In this document: positions 22,733-51,782 of the stretch, piece after piece
How the letters are laid out: each line of letters opens with the position of its first letter
How positions within the stretch are numbered: position 1 is the stretch's first letter
Assembly (NCBI RefSeq): GCF_900177805.1
Contig: NZ_FXAX01000002.1
Location: 124,001 to 188,000, forward strand
Direction: 5' to 3'
DNA: 64,000 nt
Source of the DNA: Fibrobacter sp. UWB13
GTDB taxonomy: Bacteria; Fibrobacterota; Fibrobacteria; Fibrobacterales; Fibrobacteraceae
Program-made: the position numbers and the translations under genes
Notes under the pieces: generated by a model
Seen by the model: only the letters and a program-made list of their open reading frames with translations
Databases searched by the model: none
Told to the model about the DNA's origin: nothing

Positions 22733-23432
22733 GGAACCCACCGGCAAAGCCGGTGGTTCTTCATATGCGGGCCCTGCCCTAGGATACTAGCCACGCGTCA
22801 CGTCGCGTCGGTCAATCCGCCACTTGCGAATTGTCCTTACCGGCGGCCCGTAAACGGGCTATAGTTTTCCCAGCATTGTCAACTGTTCTCCGTACTGGTC
22901 TTCCTTCAGCTGATTTTGAATATACGTTGCAATCCTTGCCGTATTTTTACCAGTCGTGTCAACATAGTAGCCGCGACACCAAAATTCCCTGTTACGGTAT
23001 TTGAACTGGAGTGATTTGTACTTTTCGTAGATCATCAGGCTACTTTTCCCTTTCAAGTACCCGACAAAACCCGAAACGCTCACTTTGGGTGGAATCTCGA
23101 CCAACATGTGAACGTGATCCGGGCAAACCTCAGCCTCCAAAATATTGACCTGTTTCCATTCGCAAAGCTTTCTCAGGATTGCTCCGATTTCGACCTTTTT
23201 CTCCCCATAAAAGACCTTCCTTCTAAATTTGGGAGCAAACACAATATGGTATTTGCAGTTCCACGATGTATGAGCCAATGTGTTATTATTTCTATTATTC
23301 ATTTGAAATCCTTTGATTTTATTGTTATGCAGTTGGCAGACCGCATATCAACAGTAATCAAGGGATTTCTTTTTATCCGAGGGCGCAACGCCAGAAGGCT
23401 CTTTTGAACCACCAGCCTAGCTGGTGGTTTTC
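22733..23432 (-). mobile_element. IS200-type insertion sequence
   Basis: A Y1 transposase gene is flanked by imperfect palindromes typical of IS200/IS605 ends: CCACCGGC AAA GCCGGTGG at 22738-22756 and AACCACCAGC CTA GCTGGTGGTT at 23407-23429. No TnpB is present. About 100 bases of structured DNA lie between the left hairpin and the tnpA stop. Exact end points are not certain. Confidence 0.8.
22859..23302 (-). CDS. tnpA: IS200-type transposase (Y1 tyrosine HUH)
   Basis: The 147-residue protein is a full-length TnpA of the IS200/IS605 family, which moves single-stranded DNA by 'peel-and-paste'. The HUH motif is in CPDHVHMLVEIPP, the N-terminus has the usual KYHIVFAPKFRRKVF, and the catalytic tyrosine is probably in TARIATYIQNQ. 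The frame is intact and both end hairpins are present, so the element may be active. Confidence 0.93.
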   Translation of the reverse strand: MNNRNNNTLAHTSWNCKYHIVFAPKFRRKVFYGEKKVEIGAILRKLCEWKQVNILEAEVCPDHVHMLVEIPPKVSVSGFVGYLKGKSSLMIYEKYKSLQFKYRNREFWCRGYYVDTTGKNTARIATYIQNQLKEDQYGEQLTMLGKL

Positions 23433-47119: not shown

Positions 47120-47240
47120 AATAATTCAAGTCTCAAAAAGACGACTATGCGACTTTCGCCTTATTAAGCATAGATGCTTCGCATCCTAGCCTCAGCGGCT
47201 CGGTCATGCCCGTGCAAGCACGGTCGCGACCCTCGCCTTT
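47120..47240 (-). repeat. structured repeat block with variable palindromes (unit C)
   Basis: On the minus strand: AAGGCGAGGGTCGCGA, palindrome CCGTGCTTGCACGG, GCATGACCGAGCC, then palindrome AAGCATCTATGCTT and AATAAGGCGAAAGTCGC. The fixed parts match units A and B at 51609-51752; the palindromes differ. Confidence 0.6.
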
Positions 47241-51543: not shown

Positions 51544-51608
51544 GATTGAACCTCAGGGGCAAACACCCCACATTAAATTTTCGGGGGTAAATTTAGAAAC
51601 TTTTGCGT

Positions 51609-51752
51609 AAGGCGAGTGAAGCGGGACTGTTTACAGGCCCATTTCCGAGCCTAGCAAAAGACACTCAAAGAGTGTCAAAGGCGAGTGCAGCGGCAAAACA
51701 ACTAGTTGTTTTGACATTGCCGAGCCGAACTAAATGCGCTCCGAAGGAGCGC
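51609..51752. repeat. structured repeat blocks with variable palindromes (units A and B)
   Basis: Two tandem blocks: AAGGCGAGTGAAGCGG, CTGTTTACAG, CATTTCCGAGCC, then palindrome GACACTCAAAGAGTGTC; and AAGGCGAGTGCAGCGG, palindrome AAAACAACTAGTTGTTTT, CATTGCCGAGCC, then palindrome GCGCTCCGAAGGAGCGC. The fixed words are nearly identical, whereas each palindrome is different but self-complementary. Unit C lies at 47120-47240. Confidence 0.7.
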
Positions 51753-51782
51753 CAATTAGCAAATTCCCCCTCTATTATCAAA

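Follow-up and report, generated by a model that had tools for sequence, protein, structure and literature searches.

The window, by which we mean the whole 64,000-nucleotide stretch of Fibrobacter sp. UWB13 DNA that was analysed, contains two repeat units (A and B) whose left-hand neighbour is a minus-strand gene for an isoleucyl-type tRNA synthetase (class I, I/L/M/V), and a third unit (C) at some distance. Read from the letters alone, these units had been described as fixed words enclosing palindromes of freely changing sequence, which raises the question of what such units are, whether their structure acts as RNA or as DNA, and how they came to lie there.

A repeat family defined by its fold

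Units A, B and C all match the pattern GGCGAG...CCGAGCC, for which 0.03 matches per window are expected in shuffled sequence. A family with fixed words is indeed present. The palindromes required correction. Perfect palindromes of 20, 17 and 17 bases had been reported between the words; the 20-base one (CAAAACAACTAGTTGTTTTG, 51694-51713, inside unit B) is perfect, but the two 17-base ones (51660-51676 and 51736-51752) each consist of a 7-bp stem and a 3-base loop and lie 3' of the fixed words, and unit A has one mismatched pair between its words. The region from 51600 to 51770 has a fold energy of -65 kcal/mol, compared to -43.7 kcal/mol in shuffles (z -5.5). The parts of the three units are listed in the table.

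Table. Parts of the repeat units in the window
Feature	Position	Strand	Basis
Unit B, P1 5' arm (target T, AAATTTAG)	51589-51596	+	Pairs with 51730-51735; identical sequence at the empty sites of relatives
Unit A, P1 5' arm (CTTTTGC), followed by GTAA at 51607-51610	51600-51606	+	Complementary to 51654-51660; covariation of P1 in the alignment
Unit A, core (41 nt)	51611-51651	+	Pattern and covariance-model match, 79 bits
Unit A, P1 3' arm (GCAAAAG)	51654-51660	+	Fold
Unit A, H2 hairpin (7-bp stem, AAA loop); the inserted unit A ends here	51660-51676	+	Fold
Unit B, core (47 nt) with the 20-base palindrome	51680-51726	+	Pattern and covariance-model match, 44 bits
Unit B, T' arm (CTAAAT), complementary to T	51730-51735	+	Sequence; same arm in L041 and L043
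Unit B, H2 hairpin (CGAAG loop)	51736-51752	+	Fold
Direct repeat of T, decayed (AATTAG), 3' of unit B	51754-51759	+	Full-length AAATTTAG there in L041; 12-nt repeat in G019
Unit C, core (41 nt); P1 pairing now poor	47197-47237	-	Pattern and covariance-model match, 71 bits
H2-like hairpin (GATGCGAAGCATC) after unit C	47173-47185	-	Sequence and fold

A search of the genome for the fixed words returned 17 matches, the inner parts of which were all palindromic. With a covariance model built from a gapless alignment of 12 copies, in which 14 of 22 pairs had changed on both sides, we found 55 copies in this genome. The element is about 75 to 85 nt long and consists of a basal helix (P1), the core and a short hairpin (H2). 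The core is laid out as GGC-GA-G-N-G-NN-GC-hairpin-AT-N'N'-C-C-GA-GCC. Across 38 dissimilar copies, 21 of the 22 pairs had changed on both sides and 91% of the cells paired; the covariation score was 0.652, compared to 0.193 in shuffles and at most 0.179 with slid partners, over which the structure has some advantage, having been drawn from copies of the same family. Pairing is thus strongly conserved in the absence of conserved sequence, as had been proposed. Constancy is highest where no Watson-Crick pair is formed, namely at the tandem G.A/G.A, the G.T and the CxA mismatch, and a single-base bulge is fixed as well. The outer GGC/GCC also covaries (GCC/GGC and GGTT/GACC variants), as does the next pair, which changes from G-C to A-T. 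The basal helix, the second hairpin and the placement of the fixed letters at non-canonical positions of the fold go beyond the sequence-only reading, as do the nesting of A in B and the mobility with empty sites described below.

A larger set, comprising 105 distinct copies that carry the fixed words and come from loci of Fibrobacteraceae, contained 90 different inner hairpins. Non-palindromic copies would have spoken against a selected structure; at least 80% of the arm positions formed Watson-Crick pairs in 90 of the 105 copies, and only one copy fell below 50%. Overall, 88% of the hairpin-arm positions were Watson-Crick and 1.6% were G.T. Word matches in viral contigs, which served as a chance control, reached 36% and 9.8%, respectively, and none of 24 was 80% paired. 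Carriage by phages was considered and discarded: the 31 word matches in viral contigs are chance matches without hairpins. G.U pairs are usually commoner in RNA helices, and the scarcity of G.T in the arms therefore leans towards a folded DNA. The copies also have no fixed orientation to genes (see below), and both features lean towards DNA in the choice between RNA and DNA, which the sequence-only reading had left undecided. CGAAG, GCTTGC and CAAAG are the most frequent H2 loops; among DNA mini-hairpins, d(GCGAAGC) is known to be very stable (PMC4686876).

Scarce G.T pairs are expected from selection on a DNA fold, or from mutational copying of one arm onto the other. Arm complementarity could be maintained by either process or by both. 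In one reading, the repeats have no function at all: arm-to-arm copying would keep the palindromes perfect, and ordinary duplication would spread them. The double-sided changes with almost no G.T intermediates agree with it, as do paired changes in length (e.g., CAACTC/GAGTTG versus CAACCTC/GAGGTTG). However, copying would also erase the G.A/G.A, the CxA and the bulge, which are among the most constant positions, and simple duplication does not produce clean empty and filled sites with inserts of unit length. A purely mutational origin is possible for the variable arms but leaves the kept mismatches unexplained, and we consider this reading improbable for the family as a whole. The kept mismatches argue instead for recognition.

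In a first sample, all 25 genomes of the same genus contained copies, and 16 others gave a single marginal match. When 150 genomes from across the phylum were sampled, copies were found in the genomes of the genus and in some other genera of Fibrobacteraceae, with one weak match elsewhere. Almost all named records matching a strict pattern were assigned to Fibrobacter or were metagenome assemblies of Fibrobacteraceae, and many of them came from rumen or gut; one was labelled Bacteroidales. The family thus occurs in every Fibrobacter genome examined and in some related genera, and essentially nowhere outside the Fibrobacteraceae. No Rfam family reached its threshold score in the region, where the best match (E 3.3) is a chance one, and a literature search returned no report of such repeats in Fibrobacter. 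The family is real, widespread and undescribed in the libraries searched, and it is a variant of the short palindromic mobile repeats.

Nesting, empty sites and flanking repeats

Unit A, together with its H2, interrupts unit B, which is found uninterrupted at L041 and L043; comparison with L043 places AAA on both sides of unit A. In genome G001, a third unit breaks the inner hairpin of B, again with AAA on both sides, and G000 is empty at this position. Both A and B are absent from the ileS promoter of relatives, which display empty sites. In G019 the insert consists of core, T' and H2 with a 12-nt repeat, and G043 is empty at that site. A symporter gene carries two different insertions among relatives, and empty sites are also present. 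Several units are inserted within CGTCATCC...ATCCAG repeats, which resemble the CGTC REPs of PMC3733652. Flanking direct repeats with a score of at least 12 were found for 13% of the unique copies, compared to 2% of cross-copy pairs, and often begin at the end of H2; they span about 3 to 54 nt, and most copies show none. Several equal-scoring copies in each of G013, G063 and G133 suggest recent spread. Two copies read in G013 are identical, share a flank and lie at different sites. Deduced from genome comparison, these patterns point to mobility of the unit.

Further observations were made at the insertion loci. The ileS promoter of G012 (L116) carries AAACTTTTGCGTAGCAAAA, in which the P1 arms of unit A enclose a GTA loop and the core is missing; this is either an empty or an excised form. 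The start of ileS is seemingly duplicated in L129, L131 and L132 (G019, G021 and G043), where the element would lie in an older ileS remnant, with a new promoter and start nearer the gene. Near a contig end in G001 (L144, around 14310), one copy of unit A and coding sequence of ileS are fused, through rearrangement or an assembly error. At the 3' end of the symporter gene (L150-L153, L164, L170) and in a gene for a radical SAM type protein (L050, L074), the last codons of the gene flank the element on both sides; the upstream tail, which is the functional one, shows synonymous recoding when compared to the downstream copy, and it is this downstream copy that matches the empty sites of relatives. 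Recombination with a distant orthologue is a possible origin of such tails. Many Fibrobacter genomes contain intergenic runs of repeats similar to GTAGACAGTAGGAAGTAGG (L110, L113, L119 and others).

The target arm and the position relative to genes

The insertion in the window adjoins AAATTTAG, the target T. On the minus strand, its complement CTAAATTT resembles the -7 box of what would be the ileS promoter, both assignments being predictions. Among copies with a non-standard P1, T was repeated after H2 (score of at least 8) in 16 of 67, compared to an expected 2.9%; of the copies with the standard ACAA arm, one of 48 showed such a repeat. Two classes of copies are therefore present. The repeat includes the P1 5' arm in, for example, L070 (AGGCTTAATA), L037 (ATATAGCATA) and L129 (AATTTAGAAAAA), and P1 is therefore partly target DNA in this subset.

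The mobile unit proper could then be core-T'-H2, with T' pairing to the host T to give T-core-T'-H2-T, so that base pairing would serve to find the target or to rebuild the basal helix. This arrangement is displayed exactly by the comparison of G019 with G043. We searched for sister copies that share core and H2 and differ in T, and found none; together with the observation that unit A brought its own P1 arm into B, this weakens the pairing idea, which we put forward tentatively and regard as rather doubtful. T' may act as an insertion guide, may be templated by the target or may have been selected afterwards. At a predicted asd gene, so called after its C-terminal sequence, two species have different host codons and the arm has changed along with them, which favours selection or templating; templating at each jump is disfavoured, since no sister copies carrying a new T were found. 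Copying of the P1 arm anew at each insertion was rejected on the same sister-copy evidence. Insertion of the core into pre-existing hairpins with GNA loops was also rejected, as only 3 of 61 genomes contained common P1 arms in their empty form.

An arm that keeps step with host codons would also suit a cis-acting RNA element, in which each copy, once transcribed, would fold and thereby stabilise or terminate the mRNA of the gene just upstream. The strong covariation agrees with such a role, as does the placement of copies behind genes: in a set of 115 copies that is enriched for high-scoring ones, 20 have a same-strand stop codon at most 20 nt before their 5' end, compared to one copy in the mirror arrangement. 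However, TAA is the commonest triplet before the core (44 of 107 copies), and the stop-codon bias is at least in part explained by a preference for TAA as a target. In the genome of UWB13, 51 of 55 copies are intergenic and their orientation to genes is near random, based on approximate gene calls from a simple codon-usage script; the folded strand of the units in the window is antisense to both neighbouring genes. G.T pairs are nearly absent from the arms, and no T-run follows the plus-strand units, which lack the stem-loop and T-run of an intrinsic terminator; weak minus-strand patterns at the H2 hairpins are at chance level. Thus, we consider a cis-acting RNA unlikely. Separately, one copy in G020 (L065:2273-2342) is apparently read in frame inside a coding sequence.

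The mobilising enzyme and related systems

The reading that we favour, and consider likely, is that the family consists of short, non-coding, non-autonomous mobile DNA elements, similar to REPs and RPEs and putatively recognised by shape. One strand would fold into a long interrupted hairpin (P1 and core) directly followed by H2. This single-stranded DNA would be the active form, and an enzyme acting in trans would probably recognise its shape through the tandem G.A/G.A, the single-base bulge and the G.T and CxA step. Insertion would take place beside a site that usually ends in AA (commonly TAA) and would leave direct repeats of varying length, while the paired arms would be free to drift as long as they stay complementary. 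Points against mobile elements are that no enzyme was found, that the direct repeats are variable or missing, unlike those of standard transposons, and that the 5' stop-codon bias (20 versus 1) is also expected of an RNA role.

Y1 transposases (IS200/RAYT) and reverse transcriptases were absent from most of the carriers tested. PF01797 was detected in a minority of the genomes of the genus and was absent from G006 (113 copies) and G019 (102 copies). Predicted genes beside dense clusters were inspected by eye for a transposase and appeared ordinary. The window itself has a match to a Y1 (IS200-like) transposase at 22910-23429 on the minus strand, with a match to the STnc490 RNA family right beside it. 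Since almost all paired bases are free to vary and the non-canonical positions stay fixed, shape recognition of a folded DNA is directly testable, and the many Fibrobacter genomes with recent insertions are a place to look for the mobilising enzyme.

GTAG REPs and REPINs with their RAYT (PMC3733652, PMC2817692, PMC3116915) are likewise short dispersed palindromes, mostly intergenic and in many copies, with unpaired landmarks in the hairpin and a short tag by the stem. The units could accordingly be ordinary GTAG-type REPs moved by a RAYT transposase, all the more so as they are high-copy hairpins with kept mismatches and a GTAA beside the core stem that resembles GTAG. However, GTAG itself stands there in 7 of 107 copies, compared to 28 with GTAA and 16 with AAAA; the stem sequence is not conserved, H2 and flanking direct repeats are present, and most genomes of the genus, some with more than 100 copies, lack a Y1 transposase. 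We regard this identity as very unlikely. CGTC REPs (PMC3733652) are also palindromic repeats without a dedicated transposase, and repeats of this type occur in Fibrobacter, where they serve as insertion sites for the units; the units differ in being longer, in their structure and in the lack of a CGTC tag, which in CGTC REPs ends a stem of 8 to 9 bp and is missing from the consensus before the core. MITEs moved by DDE transposases have terminal inverted repeats and target duplications of fixed length, a pattern from which the units depart with direct repeats of 3 to about 54 nt.

Rickettsia palindromic elements (RPEs) are named in PMC3733652. The units resemble them as palindromic mobile repeats, with one Fibrobacter copy in an open reading frame (L065:2273). 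The Fibrobacter element is mostly intergenic, with that single in-frame case, and conserves its fold rather than its sequence. RPEs measure roughly 100 bases, have no known mobiliser and are regularly inserted in frame in protein genes. Integron attC sites combine variable sequence with a conserved folded single strand whose unpaired landmarks are recognised by shape. By this general description, the Fibrobacter element may be likened to attC in its variable sequence, folded strand and unpaired landmarks; it differs in that the whole unit is dispersed and is not bound to gene cassettes.
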